Below, one piece after another: positions 48,084 to 57,985 of a stretch of 64,000 nt of DNA. This DNA comes from Gemmatimonadota bacterium. GTDB taxonomy: Bacteria > Gemmatimonadota > Gemmatimonadetes > Longimicrobiales > Gaopeijiaceae. The first letter of the stretch is position 1; each line of letters opens with the position of its first letter. The notes beneath the pieces are model-generated. The model did not search any database. It was not told the origin of the DNA and saw only the letters and a program-made list of their open reading frames with translations. The position numbers and the translations under genes are program-made. The stretch spans positions 124,001 through 188,000 of the forward strand of contig SHZR01000001.1 in NCBI GenBank assembly GCA_009692205.1, written 5' to 3'.

Positions 48084-48779
48084 ATGAGACTCGATCTTTC
48101 CGTGGGGCTCTTGGTCGCCGCCGCCCTCCTCGTGCCTGCTTCCGCCACCGCCCAGGGCATCGTAGTCGACCAGGGGAGATTCGCGGTGAGCTTCCGCGGA
48201 GCGAGCGCCGGGACCGAGGATTTCTCCATTCGGCGCGCGGGACTCGGACGGGAGGAAGCGATCTTCGCGAACGCCACGGTCGCGCTCACTCGCGAGGGTC
48301 TGCCCCAAGAGATCCGTCCCCTGCTCCGCGCAACCCCACCCAACGGAGTCGCCAGCGAGTATCAGGTGGAAGTCGTGGGCGCCGACGCGGTCGACCTGGG
48401 CCTACGGCGTGTCGGGAGGCGCTACGTAGCCACCATCCATTCGGAGATCGGCGAGGAGCAGCGGGAGTTCCCGGCGGAGCCCGACACCTGGATCTTGGAA
48501 GCGGACGTGGCGCACCTCTACTACTTCTTGCGCGACGCGAGAGAGGGCTCGGTCACCCCGGTGGTGGTGCCGCGCGCACGCATACGGCTCGAACTGACCG
48601 CCGGCGCCTCCACGGACGAGGATCTCCGCGTGGGCTCGACGGTCCTCCGTGCGCGTCGCATCGAGTTCAGCGCCGGAGAGGATCGTCGGACCGTATGGTT
48701 CGATCGGCTGGGGCGGGTGCTGCGCGTGGAGATTCCCGCGACCGGCTACGTGGCCGAGCGCACCGACGTGCTGCGCTGA
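48084..48779 (+). CDS. Exported beta-rich protein (DUF6134-like)
   Basis: 231 aa. Signal peptide ends PASATAQG (about residue 24). The rest is beta-strand-rich (QGRFAVSFRGASAGTEDFSIRR, in parts) with the C-terminal ending RTVWFDRLGRVLRVEIPATGYVAERTDVLR (in parts). The pattern (glycine-turn, RTVWFD plus LRVEIP) resembles DUF6134-type periplasmic proteins. Monocistronic between the truncated membrane gene and the kinase. Function unknown. Confidence 0.65.
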   Translation: MRLDLSVGLLVAAALLVPASATAQGIVVDQGRFAVSFRGASAGTEDFSIRRAGLGREEAIFANATVALTREGLPQEIRPLLRATPPNGVASEYQVEVVGADAVDLGLRRVGRRYVATIHSEIGEEQREFPAEPDTWILEADVAHLYYFLRDAREGSVTPVVVPRARIRLELTAGASTDEDLRVGSTVLRARRIEFSAGEDRRTVWFDRLGRVLRVEIPATGYVAERTDVLR

Positions 48780-48806: not shown

Positions 48807-50159
48807 TCACCACCTGGGACGGAGCGGCGAAACCCCGTTTCCGGAGGCCGGCACCGAAACGAGTACGGACGTGCCTTCTCCGAGCCGGCTGCTGATCTCG
48901 ATGGAGCCCCCGTGCGCCTCGACGATCCGCCTCGCGAGACTCAGCCCGATGCCATAGCCACCGGTATCCCGAGAGCGTGAACGGTCCGCCCGGTAGAATG
49001 GCTCGAAGACGAACGGCAGGTCGTCACGCGCGATGCCGACGCCGTGATCGTGGAAGGAGATCATGATCGCACCGTCCGCCGTGTCGATCACGACGCGCAC
49101 GGGCAAACCTGCGGGGTCCGAGTACTTCACCGCGTTGGAGAGCACGTTGCCCACGAGAATGCGCATCCGCTCTGGGTCGACTTCCGCGTGCAGGGGGCGA
49201 TCCGCCCCCTTGAGATCGATGCCCGGCCCGGAGTCGCTGAGCGCCGTCACGCACTCTCGCACGAGAGCGCTCAAGTCGGTGCGCTCCTTCGCGAGGCCGC
49301 CGTGCGGGCTGTCCAGCCGCTCGGTTTCGAGGAGCTCGCGGATCATCGTCTCGGTCTCCTCGACGTCCTCGATCACGCTGCGTCGGGCCGCCGAGTCCGG
49401 CATCATCTCCAGCGCCACGCGCATGCGCGTCAGCGGCGAGCGGATCTCGTGACTGACGTCCAGCAGCAGCTGGTCGCGGGCCCTGATCCGTTCCCTCACC
49501 GCTCGGGCCATGGCGTTGAACGAGACGATGAGCCGCCCGAGTTCGTCGGTGCGTCGCGTGGGCATCTCCACGTCGAGGTCGCCGGCCCGTAGCCGCTCCA
49601 CACCGTCGCTCAGGACACGCACGGGGCGCAGGAGCCGACGCGTGAGCACGTACACGCCCGCGAGCACGGCGAGCATGAAGAGCGCGTCTGCGACGTTTTC
49701 CCAGTCGGGCCCCGAGCCGAGCGCCGTCCTGCCGGACTGCAGCGAGAGCAGATACCGATACTCGCCGCGTGAGACGTCGGCGCTGAAGCCGAGCGGACTC
49801 GCGATGCCAGCGCGCGAGCCGGCCAGGCCGGGGTAGGGTGGCAGGTCGACATCCTCGAAGTCCGGGAAGTCCGCCGCGCTGGTCCACGCGACACCCGGAC
49901 CCTCGATCCGCATCCCCACGCCCAAGCGCTCGGCTACTGCTCTCGCGGTCGTCGTGTCGGGAGGGTCCCCGAGGTCGCCCAGCACATAGCGGGCATAGTT
50001 GACTGCGGTGGCTTGGATGGTGGGCCGCTCCCGCTGCCAATCGAAGACCCAGAACGTGATCGCGAAGTACGATCCCACCACGGTGAACGCGCCCACGAAG
50101 ACGAGCAGGATCTTGAGGAACAGCGCGCTCCTCACCCTACCGAGCAGCTTAAGCATCAT
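48807..50159 (-). CDS. Sensor histidine kinase (CpxA-like)
   Basis: 450 aa. TM1 about 13-36, periplasmic loop about 37-150, TM2 about 155-178, HAMP with RPVRVLSDGVERLRAGDLDVEMP. The H box is LLLDVSHEIRSPLTRM; N box NVLSNAVKY; G1 DHGVGIA; F FVFEPFYRAD; G2 GGYGIGLSLARRIVEAHGG. ATG at 50159 (or 50156) overlaps the regulator stop. It pairs with the OmpR-family regulator and faces an export operon. Confidence 0.93.
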   Translation of the reverse strand: MMLKLLGRVRSALFLKILLVFVGAFTVVGSYFAITFWVFDWQRERPTIQATAVNYARYVLGDLGDPPDTTTARAVAERLGVGMRIEGPGVAWTSAADFPDFEDVDLPPYPGLAGSRAGIASPLGFSADVSRGEYRYLLSLQSGRTALGSGPDWENVADALFMLAVLAGVYVLTRRLLRPVRVLSDGVERLRAGDLDVEMPTRRTDELGRLIVSFNAMARAVRERIRARDQLLLDVSHEIRSPLTRMRVALEMMPDSAARRSVIEDVEETETMIRELLETERLDSPHGGLAKERTDLSALVRECVTALSDSGPGIDLKGADRPLHAEVDPERMRILVGNVLSNAVKYSDPAGLPVRVVIDTADGAIMISFHDHGVGIARDDLPFVFEPFYRADRSRSRDTGGYGIGLSLARRIVEAHGGSIEISSRLGEGTSVLVSVPASGNGVSPLRPRW

Positions 50160-50838
50160 CGTCGGGCACCCCCACGAACGCGTACCCGGATCCGCGCACC
50201 GTGCGCACATAGCGCGGCTGACGTGGGTCGTCGTCGAGCTTCTGGCGGAGCCGACTCACGAGCACGTCGATCGAGCGGTCGAACGCGTCCCACGACTCGC
50301 CCTTCACCTGGTCGAGGATGTTGCCGCGTGAGAGCACCCTGCCCCGGCTGCGTATCAGGAGCTCGAGCAGATCGAACTCCGCGGTGGTGAGCGGCACCGG
50401 CTCGTCCTTCAGGTAGGCCGAGCGGCGCTGCGGGTCGACCCGTAGCGAGCCGAACTTCCACACATCCTCGGTCGAGCGCCCCCGCCGCAGGATCGCCTGG
50501 ATCCTGGCGACGAGTTCGCGGGGCTCGAACGGCTTGGGCATGTAGTCGTCTGCGCCGAGCTCCAACCCCACGACGCGGTCGGTGACGTCGCCCCTCGCCG
50601 TCAACATGATGATCGGCACCGACGAGGACCGACGGATGGCGCGGCAGGCCTCGAAGCCGTCCATGCCGGGCAACATGACGTCCAGCACGACGATGTCGGG
50701 ATGCTCGGTCTTCAGCAGCCGCAGGCCCTCGTCGGCGTTGACCGCGGTCGCGACCTCGAAGCCGCTGCTCGTGAGATACGCCGACAGGAGCCCGCAGAGC
50801 TTGCGGTCATCGTCGATCACGAGCACCCGTCCCCTCAT
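50149..50838 (-). CDS. OmpR/CpxR-family response regulator
   Basis: 229 aa. Receiver (about 1-120): VIDDDRKL, phospho-Asp in IVVLDVMLPGMDG, TARGD, YMPKPFEPREL. Winged-helix DNA-binding domain (about 130-225): LTTAEFDLLELLIRSRGRVLSR, then DRSIDVLVSRLRQKL and RYVRTVRGSGYAFV (in parts). GGGGAG SD before the ATG. Divergent from the gene at 51053; a palindrome lies between them. Confidence 0.94.
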   Translation of the reverse strand: MRGRVLVIDDDRKLCGLLSAYLTSSGFEVATAVNADEGLRLLKTEHPDIVVLDVMLPGMDGFEACRAIRRSSSVPIIMLTARGDVTDRVVGLELGADDYMPKPFEPRELVARIQAILRRGRSTEDVWKFGSLRVDPQRRSAYLKDEPVPLTTAEFDLLELLIRSRGRVLSRGNILDQVKGESWDAFDRSIDVLVSRLRQKLDDDPRQPRYVRTVRGSGYAFVGVPDDDA

Positions 50839-51052: not shown

Positions 51053-51481
51053 ATGAAGAAGATTCGACGCCACGCGCGCGCCTTCACGCTCACGGCCGCG
51101 CTCCTCGGCGCCTTCCTCGCGCCCAACATCGCGTCCGCGCAGTCGCAGCTCGCCGTGGCCGAGGCTCGGACGTTCCTGGGCACTTGGGTCCTGGCGCTCA
51201 CGTCCGACATGGGCTCGTTCAACATGAACCTGGAGGTGACCGACATGGGCGGGAAGGTGGCCGCCAGCATCGGCGCTCCTGAGATGGGTCCCATGCAGGA
51301 CGTCACCGACATCACCAAGGACGGCGAGATCCTGGTGCTCTCGTTCGCGGGTAACGCACAGGGCCAGAGCTTCGAGGCCGTGGTCACGCTCGAGCCGGCC
51401 GGCGAGGAGCTCACGGTCTGGTTCGATATCAACCAAGGCACCTTCGGGATGGGTGGAACGGGCACCAAGTCGGCCAACTAG
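51053..51481 (+). CDS. Small secreted protein of unknown function
   Basis: 142 aa. Signal peptide (MKKIRRHARAF then hydrophobic to NIASAQS, about 30 residues). The mature part starts with TFLGTWVLAL, then short beta strands with many Gly (NLEVTDMGGKVAAS, LSFAGNAQGQSFEAVVTLEP). No recognised domain. A GGAGG SD lies 10 bases before the ATG. It leads the region of the export operon, about 95 bases before tolC. Confidence 0.75.
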   Translation: MKKIRRHARAFTLTAALLGAFLAPNIASAQSQLAVAEARTFLGTWVLALTSDMGSFNMNLEVTDMGGKVAASIGAPEMGPMQDVTDITKDGEILVLSFAGNAQGQSFEAVVTLEPAGEELTVWFDINQGTFGMGGTGTKSAN

Positions 51482-51576
51482 GCGACCGGCTCGGCGCCGC
51501 TGGGGCAACGCCCCCCGTCGGGCGTACGGTCCGCGAGCGCCCACTCACCCGTAACGTAGAGGCACCTCGAACGAGC

Positions 51577-53070
51577 ATGATGAACGGTTTGCGCGCACTC
51601 GCTTTGGCTCTCTGCCTCCTGCCCACGGCACTCCGGGCTCAGGAGACGGTGCCGTCGCGCCTTTCCCTCGAGCAGGCGATCGACCTGGCACGTGCCGAAA
51701 ACCCGAACTTCCGGCAAGCCCGAAACGACGCGGGCCTGGCCGACTGGGATGTGCGTCAGGCCTATTCGGCGTTCTTCCCGCAGGTCACGGCGAGCGGCGG
51801 TGTACAGTGGCAGGGCACGGGCGAACAGCAGTTGGGAAGTCTGACCCTCGGCGACCTCGGATTCGGCAACCAGCCGTCGTACTACTCGTCCAGCTATCGA
51901 CTGGGGCTCACCTACTCTCTCGATTGGCGAACGCTCAAGGGACCGGCCCAGGCCAAGTCGAACCGACGCGTGACGGACGCCCAGATCCGGGCGTCCGAGG
52001 CCAACCTCGTGTCGCAGGTGACCAACGCCTACCTCGAGGTACTGCGCCGACAGGAAGCCCTCCGCATCACGGGGCTCCAGCTCGAGAACAGCGACAACAA
52101 CCTCCGTCTCGCGCAGGCTCAGCTCCAGGTGGGCGCCGTGACGGGCATCGACGTGGGTCAGGCGGAGGTGCAGGTTGGCCGCTCGCGCGTGACGCTGCTC
52201 CAATCCCAGAACGGGCTCGAGACGGCTCGCATGCGGTTGCTGCAGCAGCTCGGGCAGTCCATGGGGCAGGACTTCGAGGTCACGACGACCTTCCCCCTCA
52301 GCGAGCCCACGTGGGACATGGAAACGCTGGAGGCGATGGCCGTGTCCGGGAACCCGACGCTCGCCTCCCGGAGAGACTCCCGCGAGTCGGCCGATATCGG
52401 CGTGAGCATCGCCAGGTCGTCGTACATGCCCACCCTGTCGCTCTCCACGGCGTGGAGCGGCTTCACGCGCGAGGCGAGCAGCACCGACTTCCAGGTCGCG
52501 CAGGCTCAGGCACAGATCGCGAGCTCGATCGCGCAGTGCATCAACACGAACGACCTATACTCGCGCCTCGCCAACCCGCTGCCCCCGCTCGACTGCTCGC
52601 GCTTCACTTTCACCGACACCCAGCGCCAGCGGATCATCGACCAGAACAACCAGTTCCCGTTCGCGTTCGCGCGCTCGCCCTTGACGGTGTCGCTCCAGGT
52701 CAGCGTCCCGATCTTCCAGGGCCTCGGGCGCGAGCGGAACCTCGAGGCCGCGCGCCTCCAGCGTGACGACCTGACCGAGCAGGTTCGGGAGCAGGAGATC
52801 GCGCTCCAAGCCGACATCGCCATCGGGCTCGCGAACGCGCGCACTGCCTACCAGAGCGCGCTGCTCGAAGAGAGCAACCGCGTCCTGTCCGACCAACAGC
52901 TGCGTCTCGCGCGTGAGCGCTACCAACTCGGCGAGATCACCTTCGTCGACCTGGTGGACGCGCAGACCGTGCTGGCCCAAGCGGAGGCCGATCGCCTCAA
53001 CGCGATCTTCGCCTACCACGACCTGGTCACTACGCTCGAGGCCCTCGTCGGCGCCCCTCTCCGTCAATAG
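51577..53070 (+). CDS. TolC-family outer-membrane efflux protein
   Basis: 497 aa. Signal peptide ends LRAQ (about residue 22). The two coiled-coil repeats characteristic of TolC are seen, each with QRLEVGxxTGIDV-like sequence (AQLQVGAVTGIDVGQAEVQ near 190; ERYQLGEITFVDLVDAQTVL near 455). Length is about the usual 450-500. Forms the outer-membrane channel for the MacA-like adaptor gene that starts 31 bases after the tolC stop. Confidence 0.9.
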   Translation: MMNGLRALALALCLLPTALRAQETVPSRLSLEQAIDLARAENPNFRQARNDAGLADWDVRQAYSAFFPQVTASGGVQWQGTGEQQLGSLTLGDLGFGNQPSYYSSSYRLGLTYSLDWRTLKGPAQAKSNRRVTDAQIRASEANLVSQVTNAYLEVLRRQEALRITGLQLENSDNNLRLAQAQLQVGAVTGIDVGQAEVQVGRSRVTLLQSQNGLETARMRLLQQLGQSMGQDFEVTTTFPLSEPTWDMETLEAMAVSGNPTLASRRDSRESADIGVSIARSSYMPTLSLSTAWSGFTREASSTDFQVAQAQAQIASSIAQCINTNDLYSRLANPLPPLDCSRFTFTDTQRQRIIDQNNQFPFAFARSPLTVSLQVSVPIFQGLGRERNLEAARLQRDDLTEQVREQEIALQADIAIGLANARTAYQSALLEESNRVLSDQQLRLARERYQLGEITFVDLVDAQTVLAQAEADRLNAIFAYHDLVTTLEALVGAPLRQ

Positions 53071-53100
53071 CACCTACGTGAATCATCAGCCGAAGGCATC

Positions 53101-54354
53101 ATGAACACCCGATCCAAGATCATCGTCGCAGTGATTGTCGTCGCCGTCCTCGGTGCCGCCGCCGCGTTGTCCGTGACACGCTCCCGGGGCCAGGGGATCG
53201 AGGTGCGCACCGAAGTCATCGAGCGCCGAGATCTGGTCGAGATCGTCACCGCGAGCGGCAACATCCGCGCGCGCCGTACGGTGGACATCAGCTCCGACGT
53301 CTCGGCGCGGGTTGCCGAGCTACTCATCCGTGAAGGCGACGACGTCGTGCGCGGCCAGACGCTGCTCAGGCTCCAGCCGGACCAGTACCGGGCTTCCTTG
53401 TCGCGCAGCCAGGCCTCGCTCGCGCAGGCGGAAGCTCAGCGCACGCAGCAGGAGGCGAACCTCATCCGCACGAGGCGCGACCTGGATCGCCTGCTTGCGC
53501 TCCGCACGAGGGACTCCCTGCTGGTGAGCCGCCAGCAGATCGACGATGCGACGACGAGCCTCGATGTCGCGGCTGCGACGCTTTCGTCGGCCGAGCACGG
53601 CGTGTCGTCGGCCCGCGCCGCGGTGGACGAGTCCCAGGATCAGCTCGCGAAGACGATCTTCGTCGCGCCCATCGACGGGAAGATCACGCGCCTGAACGTC
53701 GAAGAGGGCGAGACGGTGATCATCGGCACGATGAACAATCCGGGCAGCCTGGTGCTCACCATCGCCGACCTGTCGGTGATCGAGGCCGTGATGCAGGTCG
53801 ACGAGACCGACGTGTCGGCTATCACCCTCGGTGACAGCGCGGTCATTCGCATCGACGCCTTCTCCGACCGCGAGTTCGTCGGCCGCGTCACCGAGATCGG
53901 GAACTCCGCGATCAACGCGCCGTCGGGGCAGGCCGCGGGCCAGCAGGCGGCGATCGACTTCGAGGTGGTCGTCACGCTCGACGCGACCGACGCTCTGCTG
54001 CGGCCCGACCTGTCGGCAACTGCCGACATCGTCGTCGAAGGTCGCCAGCAGTCGATCTCCGTTCCGATCATCGCCATGACGGTCCGTGAGGACTCGACCT
54101 GGACCGGAGGGGCCAACGAGGGTGACCGCGGGGCGGCCCGAGAGATCGAGGGCGTCTTCCTCTCGCGCGGCGGGCGGGCCACGTTCACGCCTGTGACCAT
54201 CGGCATCGCCGGCCAGGAGTACTTCGAGGTGCTCACGGGGCTCGCCGAGGGCGACACCGTCGTCGCGGGCCCCTACCAGCGCATCCGCCAGCTCATCGAG
54301 GGCGACGCCATCGTGGCGACGGAAGAGGATCTTCCCGAAGGCGAAGGCAACTAG
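53101..54354 (+). CDS. MacA/HlyD-family periplasmic adaptor
   Basis: 417 aa. N-terminal TM anchor about 7-24. Barrel-sandwich lipoyl half ASGNIRARRTVDISSDVSARV and FVAPIDGKITRLNVEEGETV (in parts), a helical hairpin of about 110 residues between them, and a C-terminal beta-barrel/MP domain to residue about 400. Joins the inner-membrane permeases to TolC. GAAGG SD. Confidence 0.9.
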   Translation: MNTRSKIIVAVIVVAVLGAAAALSVTRSRGQGIEVRTEVIERRDLVEIVTASGNIRARRTVDISSDVSARVAELLIREGDDVVRGQTLLRLQPDQYRASLSRSQASLAQAEAQRTQQEANLIRTRRDLDRLLALRTRDSLLVSRQQIDDATTSLDVAAATLSSAEHGVSSARAAVDESQDQLAKTIFVAPIDGKITRLNVEEGETVIIGTMNNPGSLVLTIADLSVIEAVMQVDETDVSAITLGDSAVIRIDAFSDREFVGRVTEIGNSAINAPSGQAAGQQAAIDFEVVVTLDATDALLRPDLSATADIVVEGRQQSISVPIIAMTVREDSTWTGGANEGDRGAAREIEGVFLSRGGRATFTPVTIGIAGQEYFEVLTGLAEGDTVVAGPYQRIRQLIEGDAIVATEEDLPEGEGN

Positions 54355-54369
54355 CCCGAGGGGGCGCTC

Positions 54370-55611
54370 TTGCAGCTCTGGGAAGGCGTATACCTTGCGT
54401 TCCAGCAGATCTGGACGGAGAAGCTGAAAAGCTTCTTCTCGGTCTTGGGCGTCATCCTCGGCGTGATGTTCCTGATCGTCGTCGTCACCGTCGTAGAGGG
54501 CCTCGACCGGTTGGTGCGCGAAGACTTCTCGTCGCAGGTGTTCGGCGTGAACACGGTCACCCTGCGGCGATGGCAGCAGGTCAACATCAACACGAGCCGC
54601 GAAGAGCGTCGGGAGCGCGCCCGCAGGCCCTTCATCTACTACGCGGACGCCGAGGCGATCGAGGAGCGGCTCACGCTGCCCGCGCGCATCGCCGTGGAGA
54701 ACGGGGGAAGCGCGAGCGCCGTCGGCGACAACGGCAGGGCCGTAAGCGGCGTGCAAGTCACCGGCGCGACTGCCGACATCTTCGCCATCCGGGATCTCCA
54801 GGTCAGCCAGGGTCGCGTCTTCACCCCCCAGGAGGCGGATGCCGGCGCCCCTGTGGTCGTGATCGGCTACGAGACCGCCGACGTCATCTTCGAGGACGGC
54901 GTGGCGCTCGGGCGCGGGATCCGCATCGGCGGCTTCCCCTATCGGATCATCGGGATCCTCGAGGAGCGCGGCTCGATGTTCGGCCAGTCGCTCGACAACC
55001 TCGCGATCGCACCCGCGCGCTCACCGATCCAGTCGATCACATCGCCGCCCCGAGTCGCTGAGAACATCATCATCCAGGCCATCGATCCCGATCAGCTCCG
55101 CGACATTCAGTCGGAGGTGGAGGGGATCATGCGGGCACGTCGCAACCTCCGTCCGACCGAGGAAGCGAACTTCTCGCTCGAGACCGCCGACGAGGCCATC
55201 AGCTTCTGGAACAACATCTCGCGGATCCTCTTCACGGTTCTGCCGCTGTTCGTCTCGATCGCCCTCGTGGTCGGCGGCATCGTGATCATGAACATCATGC
55301 TCGTCTCGGTCATGGAGCGCACCCGCGAGATCGGCGTGCGTAAGGCCATCGGGGCGCGACGGCGCGACATCCTCACGCAGGTGCTCATCGAGTCCGCGAC
55401 GCTCGCCACCCTCGGCGCGATCATCGGCGTTGCGGTCGGACTGGGGATCGCCCAACTCCTCGCAGCGCTCTCGCCCCTTCCCGCAGCCGTGGCGCCGCGA
55501 TGGATCGCTCTAGGAGTGGGCCTGGGGATGACGGTCGGGATCGTCGCGGGGGTGTACCCCGCGACTCAAGCGTCGAAGCTCGACCCCGTGGACGCGCTTC
55601 GCTATGAGTGA
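54370..55611 (+). CDS. MacB-type ABC permease (FtsX fold), without ATPase domain
   Basis: 413 aa. TTG start with GAGGGGG about 7 bases before. TM1 about 21-45; periplasmic MacB core domain about 50-270; three C-terminal helices from about 290 (VGGIVIMNIMLVSVMERTREIGVRKAIGARR is the FtsX coupling helix). It lacks the N-terminal ATPase (no Walker A) found in full MacB. Overlaps the next permease by 8 bases. Confidence 0.9.
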   Translation: MQLWEGVYLAFQQIWTEKLKSFFSVLGVILGVMFLIVVVTVVEGLDRLVREDFSSQVFGVNTVTLRRWQQVNINTSREERRERARRPFIYYADAEAIEERLTLPARIAVENGGSASAVGDNGRAVSGVQVTGATADIFAIRDLQVSQGRVFTPQEADAGAPVVVIGYETADVIFEDGVALGRGIRIGGFPYRIIGILEERGSMFGQSLDNLAIAPARSPIQSITSPPRVAENIIIQAIDPDQLRDIQSEVEGIMRARRNLRPTEEANFSLETADEAISFWNNISRILFTVLPLFVSIALVVGGIVIMNIMLVSVMERTREIGVRKAIGARRRDILTQVLIESATLATLGAIIGVAVGLGIAQLLAALSPLPAAVAPRWIALGVGLGMTVGIVAGVYPATQASKLDPVDALRYE

Positions 55612-56890
55612 CCAACCCGACCTCCGCGGAGCCTCCGGCGCCTCGGCGCTCACGGAGGGGCTCGCCATCGCGTGGGACGCGGTGACGGCCAACAAGGTCC
55701 GCTCCGCGCTGACCATTCTTGGTGTCGCGGTGGGCGTGTCCGTGGTGATGGCGATCGCGGCCCTCGTCACCGGCATCCGCACGAGCGTCATGTCGGCGTT
55801 CGAGTCGGCCGGCCCGAATAACTTCATCGTGACTCGGATCGACTTCACCGCCATCCAGATCTCGGACGGCAGCGACCGGCCGCCTTGGTGGAACCGCCCG
55901 GAGATCGAGCCGGAAGAGGCACGCCGGATCGGCGCGCTCCCCACGGTCAGCGATGCGCTCTACCTGTTCGACTTCCAAGTGGACTTGGCCTTCGAGAGCC
56001 AGCGGCTCGACGAGATCATGGGAAGGGGCTTCTCCGCGGGATGGCCGGCGTACACGCCCGGGACGTTCCTCGCGGGCCGTGACTTCACCCCCGCCGAGGT
56101 GAACCAGAACCGCGCGGTGGTCGTCCTCTCCTCCGGGCTCGCCGAGAACCTCTTCGGCCAGAGGGACCCCGTGGGTCGGGTCATCCGCGTACCGAACGAC
56201 TTCAGGGGGACGCAGGAGTCGTTCACGGTCATCGGGGTCTTCGAGCCCGAGGAGAACATCTTCTCGTCCGCGTTCCAGAACTTCGCCATCTTTCCCTGGA
56301 CCGCGGCCGTGCGGCGCTTACGGCAGTCCTCGTGGCAGGCGCAGATCTTGGTGGTGCCGCGGGACTCCGTCAGCCCCGCGCGCGCGCAAGACGACGTGAT
56401 TGCCGCGATGCGCGGAATGCGCGGTCTGGGTCCGAGTGAGGAGAACAACTTCGCGGTCATGGCATCTGCACAGATTCTCGAACTGTTCAACCGTCTCACC
56501 GCGGTGTTCTTCTTGGTCATCCTCCTGCTCGCGTCGGCGGGACTCCTGGTCGGAGGCGTGGGCGTCGTGGGCATCATGCTCATCTCCGTGACCGAAAGGA
56601 CACGCGAGGTCGGTGTGCGTAAGGCCGTGGGCGCCACGCGGCGAGAGATCCTCTGGCAGTTCCTCGTCGAGTCGTCGTTCCTTACGTCGTTCGGAGCCGC
56701 GGTAGGGATGGCCGTCGGCTTCGGGCTGGCGATCGCCGTAGCCGCATTTACCCCCCTGCCCGCCGAGATCCCCGTCTGGGCCGTCGTCGTCGCCCTCGTC
56801 ATGGCGGCGCTGACCGGCATGCTCTTCGGCCTGCTGCCGGCGTACCGTGCGAGCCGACTCCAACCCGTTGCCGCCCTGAGGCACGAATGA
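55604..56890 (+). CDS. Second MacB-type ABC permease (FtsX fold)
   Basis: 428 aa, paralogue of the preceding permease. TM1 about 37-60, periplasmic domain about 65-300, then VGGVGVVGIMLISVTERTREVGVRKAVGATRREIL coupling helix and two further helices. Also no ATPase motif. ATG starts within the previous stop region (ATGAGTGA) and its own stop overlaps bshB1 (ATGA). The pair could form a heterodimer with an ATPase encoded elsewhere. Confidence 0.9.
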   Translation: MSDQPDLRGASGASALTEGLAIAWDAVTANKVRSALTILGVAVGVSVVMAIAALVTGIRTSVMSAFESAGPNNFIVTRIDFTAIQISDGSDRPPWWNRPEIEPEEARRIGALPTVSDALYLFDFQVDLAFESQRLDEIMGRGFSAGWPAYTPGTFLAGRDFTPAEVNQNRAVVVLSSGLAENLFGQRDPVGRVIRVPNDFRGTQESFTVIGVFEPEENIFSSAFQNFAIFPWTAAVRRLRQSSWQAQILVVPRDSVSPARAQDDVIAAMRGMRGLGPSEENNFAVMASAQILELFNRLTAVFFLVILLLASAGLLVGGVGVVGIMLISVTERTREVGVRKAVGATRREILWQFLVESSFLTSFGAAVGMAVGFGLAIAVAAFTPLPAEIPVWAVVVALVMAALTGMLFGLLPAYRASRLQPVAALRHE

Positions 56891-57621
56891 ACACCTCGAT
56901 GAAGCCCCTCGACCTCCTCGCCATCATGTCGCACCCGGACGACGCCGAGCTACTCTGCGGCGGTTCGCTCATCAAGGCGGCGTCGAGAGGCAAGCGCGTC
57001 GGCATCCTGGACCTCACGGCCGGCGAGATGGGGAGCCAGGGCTCGAGCGAGATTCGGGCGCGCGAGTCCGCGAGGGCCGCCGAGATCATGGGTGTCGCCG
57101 AACGCCGGTGCGCCGGCCTGCCGGACGCCGCGATCGAGAACGACAACGCATCGCGGCACATCATCGCCGGGCACATCAGAGCGCTTCGGCCGCGGGTGGT
57201 TGTGACACACTGGGTCGTCGGCCGCCACCGCGACCACCGCGTCGCCGCGGAGCTCGTCCGGGACGCGTGCTATCTGTCCGGCCTCAGAAAGCTCGACGTC
57301 GACGGCGAGCCGTTCCGGCCGCTGAAGCTCGTGTACGCCACCGCGTTTCGCGAAGACGTCGAGCTCCCGAGCTTCGTGGTCGACATCTCCCAGCAGCTTC
57401 GCAAGAAGCTCGAAGCCCTGTCGGCGTACTCGTCCCAGTTCGACGGGGTTCGTGGCTACGGGGAGGTCTATCCCGGTGGGGAGCGCGACATCCTCGAGCA
57501 GGTCCGCATGAAGATGGCCCACTACGGATCGCTCATCCGCGTCGAGTACGGCGAGCCGTTCCGAGTCGGCGAGCCCTTCGATGTCGCCGACCTGTCGACG
57601 CTGACCGTAGCGACCTTCTGA
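56887..57621 (+). CDS. bshB1: Bacillithiol biosynthesis deacetylase BshB1
   Basis: 244 aa PIG-L/LmbE-fold zinc deacetylase, probably converting GlcNAc-malate to GlcN-malate. Zinc motif SHPDDAELLCGG (H16, D18, D19), a BshB1-type LTAGEMGSQGS, and WVVGRHRDHRVAAEL with the third ligand. bshA and bshC are not in the window. Coupled to the permease gene (ATGA). The alternative is another PIG-L sugar deacetylase. Confidence 0.88.
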   Translation: MNTSMKPLDLLAIMSHPDDAELLCGGSLIKAASRGKRVGILDLTAGEMGSQGSSEIRARESARAAEIMGVAERRCAGLPDAAIENDNASRHIIAGHIRALRPRVVVTHWVVGRHRDHRVAAELVRDACYLSGLRKLDVDGEPFRPLKLVYATAFREDVELPSFVVDISQQLRKKLEALSAYSSQFDGVRGYGEVYPGGERDILEQVRMKMAHYGSLIRVEYGEPFRVGEPFDVADLSTLTVATF

Positions 57622-57631
57622 CCGGCGCCGT

Positions 57632-57985
57632 CTAAGCCACCAGGCAGGACACCTCCAGAAGCAGGCGTCGCCACGACGGGACGTCGGAGCCACGCACGCT
57701 GAGGGCGCGGGCCTCGGCGACGCCTCCCCTCGACATCCAGGGCCACAGCCAGCTGGCGATCTCGGCCGGGAGGTGACCGAGCGGCTCGCCGGACTCCAGG
57801 TGCACCCAGATTTCTGGATCGATCTGGACCGGAGGGTCTGGCACGAGGCGCAGCGAGTCGCCCTCCGCCAGCCCGTCGACGAACCTCTCCCGCCCCGCGA
57901 AGACCGTCCCGTGCACCGTCGAGCGGAAGCACGGGGGCTTGCCTTGGGGGAATGGCGGTGGCGTCATGATCGGGTCGAAGGGCAC
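57632..57985 (-). CDS. Small HIRAN-like protein
   Basis: 117 aa, no signal peptide. TVHGTVFAGRERFVDGLAEGDSLRLVPDP and WVHLESGEPLGHLPAEIASWLWPWM (each in parts) resemble the HIRAN domain, which is an OB-like nucleic-acid-end binder in helicases. Free-standing HIRAN proteins occur but their role is unclear. Start GTG 57985 is used; ATG 57967 is possible. Divergent from the cysteine desulfurase. Confidence 0.5.
   Translation of the reverse strand: MPFDPIMTPPPFPQGKPPCFRSTVHGTVFAGRERFVDGLAEGDSLRLVPDPPVQIDPEIWVHLESGEPLGHLPAEIASWLWPWMSRGGVAEARALSVRGSDVPSWRRLLLEVSCLVA

Follow-up and report, generated by a model that had tools for sequence, protein, structure and literature searches.

A MacB-like export operon that has lost its ATPase gene in one family of Gemmatimonadota and a paralogous ATPase that probably serves it in trans

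Introduction

MacB-type export systems depend on an ATPase which, in the part of a MacB review that treats its architecture, is described as fused to a single homodimeric permease (PMC5985334). The window analysed here, a stretch of 64,000 nucleotides from a Gemmatimonadota genome, contains an operon with the permeases of such a system and no gene for an ATPase, raising the question of what, if anything, energises them. A sequence-only reading of the locus had proposed that the ATPase must come from elsewhere or that the permeases have an unusual mode of action. We have addressed this question by comparing the operon across the families of the class, designated f1 for the family of the window and f2-f10 for the others, f2 and f3 being sister families of f1.

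Results

Six ORFs, extending from a gene for a 142-aa secreted protein to bshB1, lie together on the plus strand. The 142-aa ORF (51053..51481) is followed by a TolC-type outer-membrane factor (51577..53070; OEP PF02321, 9.1e-50), a MacA-type periplasmic adaptor (53101..54354; HlyD_D23 and RND_mfp, with TIGR01730 at 134 bits, above its cut-off) and two permease genes, perm1 (54370..55611, TTG start) and perm2 (55604..56890), which overlap by 8 nt. MacB_PCD and FtsX are matched in both permeases alike, at E 1e-19 to 1e-35, and neither permease carries a nucleotide-binding domain. The last gene, bshB1 (56887..57621), overlaps perm2 through ATGA and encodes a bacillithiol biosynthesis deacetylase scoring 206 bits against TIGR04001 (cut-off 182.5), as the sequence-only reading had it. 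The operon shares with MacAB-TolC an OEP outer-membrane factor, a MacA-like adaptor and the MacB_PCD plus FtsX permease fold, and has no ATPase, either as part of the permease chain or in a gene next to it. Equivalog cut-offs are missed by the MacA (NF008606, 123 of 342 bits) and by both permeases (NF007826, 151 and 163 of 966 bits), as is the ADOP cut-off (TIGR03434, 622 bits) with 134 bits for perm1 and 123 for perm2.

An ATPase hidden inside the operon is ruled out by the ORF list and by tblastn, as four operon ATPases of relatives, used as queries, found no match in window positions 53000-57700. The gap between macA and perm1, where the ATPase gene stands in the sister families, is 15 nt long (54355..54369, plus strand) and holds no tblastn remnant. 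The noted series of TolC, MacA and two permeases with no nucleotide-binding protein is therefore confirmed by ORFs, family matches and tblastn. The genome itself (G000) is a 2.7-Mb assembly of 61 contigs, 97.9% complete, whose closest named relatives are Gemmatimonadetes/Gemmatimonadota metagenome-assembled genomes.

In the sister families the order macA-ATPase-perm1 is observed in 14/14 loci with both macA and perm1 in view, two f2/f3 loci (L072 and L079) being cut at contig ends. Five further families have the ATPase between macA and perm1 in 14 of 16 loci, one of these 14 (G166) being frameshifted, the two exceptions being G162 and an additional permease pair in G192. In contrast, macA is followed directly by perm1 in all 33 f1 loci in which both genes are in view, the window and many genera included. 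A single f1 genome, G099 (L124), has an operon-type ATPase just downstream of perm2 instead, in a gene crossed by an N run. A set of 79 loci from named relatives, nine of them incomplete and partly from the same genomes as the other locus counts, divides in a similar manner: complete loci at ≥50% perm2 identity are without ATPase in 50/50 cases, whereas 16 of the 20 complete loci below 50% carry it, the remaining four being L240 and L242 (both 49%), L252 (broken perm2 frame) and L269 (46%). The operon is therefore old in the class, its ATPase is ancestral between macA and perm1, and loss of the dedicated motor throughout f1 is real. Relatives with an ATPase just upstream of perm1, which the earlier reading had expected to overturn its observation, do exist; they indicate lineage-wide loss, and the observation itself stands.

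The ATPase did prove to have a near relative elsewhere, as had been anticipated. When 18 f1 genomes were searched with a profile (A1) built from 11 operon ATPases of f2/f3, each yielded a single match that stood out, scoring 397-422 bits, with 327 bits the next best in any of them. In G000 this match is a gene at C20:26146-26844, scoring 413 bits against the operon-ATPase profile, whose product carries GPSGSGKS, MSGGQ, LLADEP and the switch histidine. This site, locus C, was viewed in 29 f1 genomes, with the order ATPase-MacA-permease in 22 and a cut by contig end or N run in six. Upstream of the ATPase there is usually a sigma factor (Pfam) and two small proteins which, having no Pfam match, are read as a putative anti-sigma factor and a Spy-like protein. 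A tolC gene lies ahead of the ATPase in 17 of these 29 genomes, G000 not being one of them. A further system, locus B, is separate, consisting of MacA, ATPase, permease and usually TolC, with more distant ATPases. At one locus (L129) in G109, a genome that does have perm2, the contig end removes the start of a locus-C-type ATPase, and the gene after it is of another kind, neither a MacA nor a permease being adjacent; this copy is possibly kept only for service in trans.

Counting cut copies, an operon-type ATPase is present in 112/121 f1 genomes, full in 106, cut by a contig end in four (G097, G102, G109, G123), crossed by an N run in G095 and located in the operon in G099; none was detected in the other nine. 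perm2 is likewise present in 112/121, with G142 and G144 matching only at the perm1 level. The ATPase accompanies perm2 in 105 of 112 genomes and occurs in 7 of the 9 without perm2, an association within f1 which is weak and does not prove pairing by co-occurrence. Neither is detected in G019 or G020. perm2 occurs with no detected operon-type ATPase in seven f1 genomes (G005, G011, G106, G138, G031, G111, G139); most of these assemblies are fragmented, but two of them, G139 (40 contigs, 91% complete) and G031 (270 contigs, 94%), are counter-evidence to a locus-C motor that is not easily dismissed. G095 was rejected as a further counter-example, its locus-C ATPase being present and cut by the N run.

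Locus C is not confined to f1, as a second operon-type ATPase is found in 15 of 16 f6 genomes (nine viewed) and in the f10 genome G212. The operon ATPase is retained in 12 of the 15 f6 genomes holding the paralogue, so that the latter is not always a replacement. In a tree of 85 ATPases (fragments under 195 aa left out; paired supports are SH-aLRT/bootstrap, read as splits, and single figures are from FastTree), a split at 98.2/100 separates operon and locus-C ATPases from those of locus B and all the rest, and the f1 locus-C ATPases together with that of G099 form one clade at 99.5/100. The f1 locus-C ATPases join those of f6/f10 at 94.3/73 in a tree of 74 sequences, from which a set of similar rows and outgroup D were dropped, and at 0.949 in a FastTree of 88. 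The sister group of the locus-C ATPases is unstable, being f2 in the 85-sequence tree (95.5/88) and lying near f6/f7/f10 in the 74-sequence tree (92.5/62). In contrast to the ATPase, the locus-B and locus-C permeases branch off jointly (0.988, FastTree, 40 chosen sequences), as do their MacAs (0.922, FastTree, 30 chosen sequences). This makes locus C a mosaic, its ATPase grouping with the operon type and its MacA and permease with the locus-B type, and an operon-type ATPase already sits there beside a different type of permease. A simpler scenario, direct transfer of the operon ATPase to locus C in the f1 ancestor, is weakened by the presence of locus C, with its own ATPase clade, in f6/f10; our preferred reading is instead that an older paralogue took over in f1, from a position among the operon ATPases that varies between trees. 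Identity to the operon consensus in the Q-loop segment is 0.919 for the f1 locus-C ATPases (n=21) versus 0.874 in f6/f10, a difference not corrected for ancestry and only suggestive.

Loss of the operon ATPase has recurred outside f1. The gene is cleanly gone in G162 (f6) and G187 (f4), is reduced in G200 (f6) by internal deletions that remove the signature motif, and is frameshifted in G166 (f6), where sequencing error is possible. Lost or broken operon ATPases occur in 4/17 genomes with a second operon-type ATPase versus 0/60 without one (Fisher p 0.0018 with four events, 0.009 with three, in a test that ignores relatedness). The counted genomes are those outside f1 with a judgeable operon, leaving out operons that end at a contig break and those whose perm2 was not among the matches listed (the genomes left out include f5, f8 and part of f4); the 60 comprise a first set of 50, eight f2/f3 genomes and, after inspection, G192 and G179. 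G192 was rejected as a loss, its ATPase-free pair being an extra copy, and G179 was rejected because its operon is split inside perm1 with the ATPase kept, the two parts (L173/L174) being separated by about 70 kb of the same contig. The two other operon-type ATPases of G187 group with those of its own family (93.6/95). The series from both motors kept, through a decaying motor (G200), to a motor that is gone makes the question directly testable. In G149 (f5), the order TolC-MacA-ATPase is followed by mnmA within about 800 bases (L189), leaving no room for a permease pair, which seems to lie elsewhere in the genome; the permeases may be separated from their motor in this case as well.

These repeated losses also bear on whether a different genomic ATPase energises perm1 and perm2, either a solitary LolD-like protein encoded on contig C52 or one beside duplicated orphan permeases. 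The C52 ATPase (G000:C52:20295-20972; L035:2805-3470) adjoins a DUF420 protein and no FtsX-type permease is recognised beside it, further MacB-type ATPases are present, and a motor of this kind could also cover G139 and G031. However, the operon-ATPase profile gives it 219 bits, compared with 413 for the locus-C ATPase, and outside f1 the operon losses go with the presence of the operon-type paralogue; we consider this alternative unlikely. In L109 and L169, relatives of the C52 ATPase (68% identical) have long permeases of the duplicated type nearby, and it may be the motor of such permeases.

The permeases themselves are constrained. Pairwise identity in the coupling-helix segment, placed between TM2 and TM3 after the part of the MacB review concerned (PMC5985334), is 0.832 for perm1 (aa 316-341, 55315..55392, plus strand) versus 0.589 elsewhere in the protein and 0.869 for perm2 (aa 331-356, 56594..56671, plus strand) versus 0.519, among 32 f1 sequences. 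For 15 relatives from the order, the ATPase being in view in 13, the corresponding values are 0.798 versus 0.553 and 0.867 versus 0.504, suggesting that constraint on the coupling helices is equally strong in f1 and in relatives with an ATPase. Within the genus, dN/dS is 0.09-0.17 for perm1 and perm2 (three unsaturated comparisons each, a fourth being saturated), indicating purifying selection on both. A structural model of perm2 (pLDDT 76, 11 sequences) has as its best match by E-value MacB (5gko_A, E 3.9e-24), with a higher TM, 0.70/0.76, to the split-ATPase relative 5xu1_M. Fold, coupling helices and selection are thus ordinary for MacB-type permeases, and the suggestion that they act in an unusual way finds no support. 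By the same evidence, it is quite improbable that perm1 and perm2 need no ATPase, being either a scaffold or channel that works without ATP or a pump in slow decay. The empty site in all 33 f1 loci and the few genomes with no detected operon-type ATPase agree with such a reading, whereas the low dN/dS and the unrelaxed coupling helices argue against it, as does the lack of internal stops among the perm2 matches listed across f1. That the missing gene is an artefact of assembly is scarcely credible: many of the genomes are metagenome-assembled, but the arrangement is the same in 33/33 loci of many genera, including the single-contig genomes G008, G026 and G029, and in the 50/50 named loci, which come partly from the same genomes.

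Discussion

The evolutionary pattern suggests that one paralogous ATPase probably powers two MacB-type pumps in trans. The operon would encode a tripartite MacAB-TolC-like pump, with a perm1/perm2 heterodimer as its likely inner-membrane unit, whose own ATPase gene would have been lost in the f1 ancestor. An ATPase dimer would now be supplied in trans by the locus-C paralogue, which we propose binds not only perm1 and perm2, at their coupling helices, but also its own permease and, once docked, would drive an ordinary MacB-type mechanotransmission cycle. A more extended version, for which we consider the chances even, is that this single ATPase, encoded in a sigma-factor-headed locus, is the obligate common motor of two structurally different pumps, one with one permease gene and the other with two, that where locus C is without TolC, as in G000, the first pump may borrow the TolC of the operon, and that loss of the dedicated motor is a repeated route in the class.

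Sharing of a motor may already occur within operons. Two or three perm1-perm2 pairs stand behind one ATPase gene in L144, L153, L167, L186, L257, L258, L260-L263, L266, L270 and L271, with three tandem pairs in L153, L167, L260-L263, L266 and L271, an arrangement which suggests paralogous pumps with a common motor and adaptor. One ATPase serving several pairs is therefore likely within operons, and from there the step to service in trans is short. A locus that may count against supply by the locus-C paralogue is L269, a named locus below 50% identity without an ATPase in its operon. In five other loci (L064, L069, L135, L240, L256) neither a recognised tolC nor an ATPase is observed, the gene for a 231-aa secreted protein being followed by macA; the outer-membrane factor of such operons may also be supplied in trans.

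The operon resembles MacAB-TolC, a type VII ABC system, in its TolC, MacA-type adaptor and MacB_PCD plus FtsX permeases, and in the match of the perm2 model to MacB, and differs in having a permease of two genes and an ATPase at another locus. In Spr0694-0695 and in LolCDE the ATPase is dedicated and is not known to be common to a second pump. Parts of two papers describe a separate ATPase polypeptide, Spr0694, in Spr0694-0695 (5XU1; PMC8277102) and LolC/LolE as a heterodimeric permease (PMC5985334). The window operon is like the former in its separate ATPase polypeptide and like the latter in its two permeases, which would here also form a heterodimer. The FtsX/MacB_PCD fold is common to perm1, perm2 and ADOP (TIGR03434) as well, ADOP family permeases being orphan; the duplicated permease of ADOP is a single chain, whereas perm1 and perm2 are separate genes accompanied by TolC and MacA.

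ATPase sharing is already established for importers, as the parts concerned of PMC4519317 and PMC9947336 describe one ATPase with more than one transport activity or transporter for MsmK of Streptococcus suis and MceG of Mycobacterium tuberculosis. Those are importers of other ABC classes, whereas here both systems would be MacB-type and the sharing is read from evolutionary pattern only. No description of a MacB-type export pump borrowing or sharing an ATPase was found in the literature searched, coverage of which leaves most subscription papers outside. If the proposal is correct, specificity between ATPase and permease in the MacB-type class is loose enough for motor swaps between permease subfamilies, and permeases annotated as 'orphan' need not be dead or ATP-independent.

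The genes flanking the exporter differ in their conservation. The order perm2-bshB1-cysteine desulfurase-mnmA, the latter two named by similarity to window genes that were themselves named by reading, recurs in most loci of the class, making bshB1 an old neighbour, and its adjacency by itself does not tell the substrate of the pump. The 142-aa protein, which had been suggested as cargo or sensor partner, is not conserved with the operon: besides the window it is found in 2 of 40 relatives' loci, both of the same genus and some of the 40 being cut before the site, and in 2 of the 79 named loci, which are the same two genomes. It has no match in family profile searches and probably lies outside the exporter, and restriction to part of one genus does not support either role. 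Its gene and a histidine kinase and response regulator pair (window 48807-50838, minus strand) separate the 231-aa gene from tolC only in that part of the genus.

The gene for the 231-aa secreted protein (48084..48779, plus strand), in contrast, is conserved class-wide upstream of tolC, in most f1-f4, f6, f7, f9 and f10 loci that reach so far. DUF6134 is matched by 28 of 40 homologues (E<=0.01), the window protein itself not being matched. Its model is beta-rich (pLDDT 92.7), and a fold search gave a sperm axoneme chain (4e-6) followed by DUF1849 6ntr (3e-5), top matches that assign it no function. The 231-aa protein is a conserved secreted neighbour of the operon and possibly a periplasmic partner of the pump.
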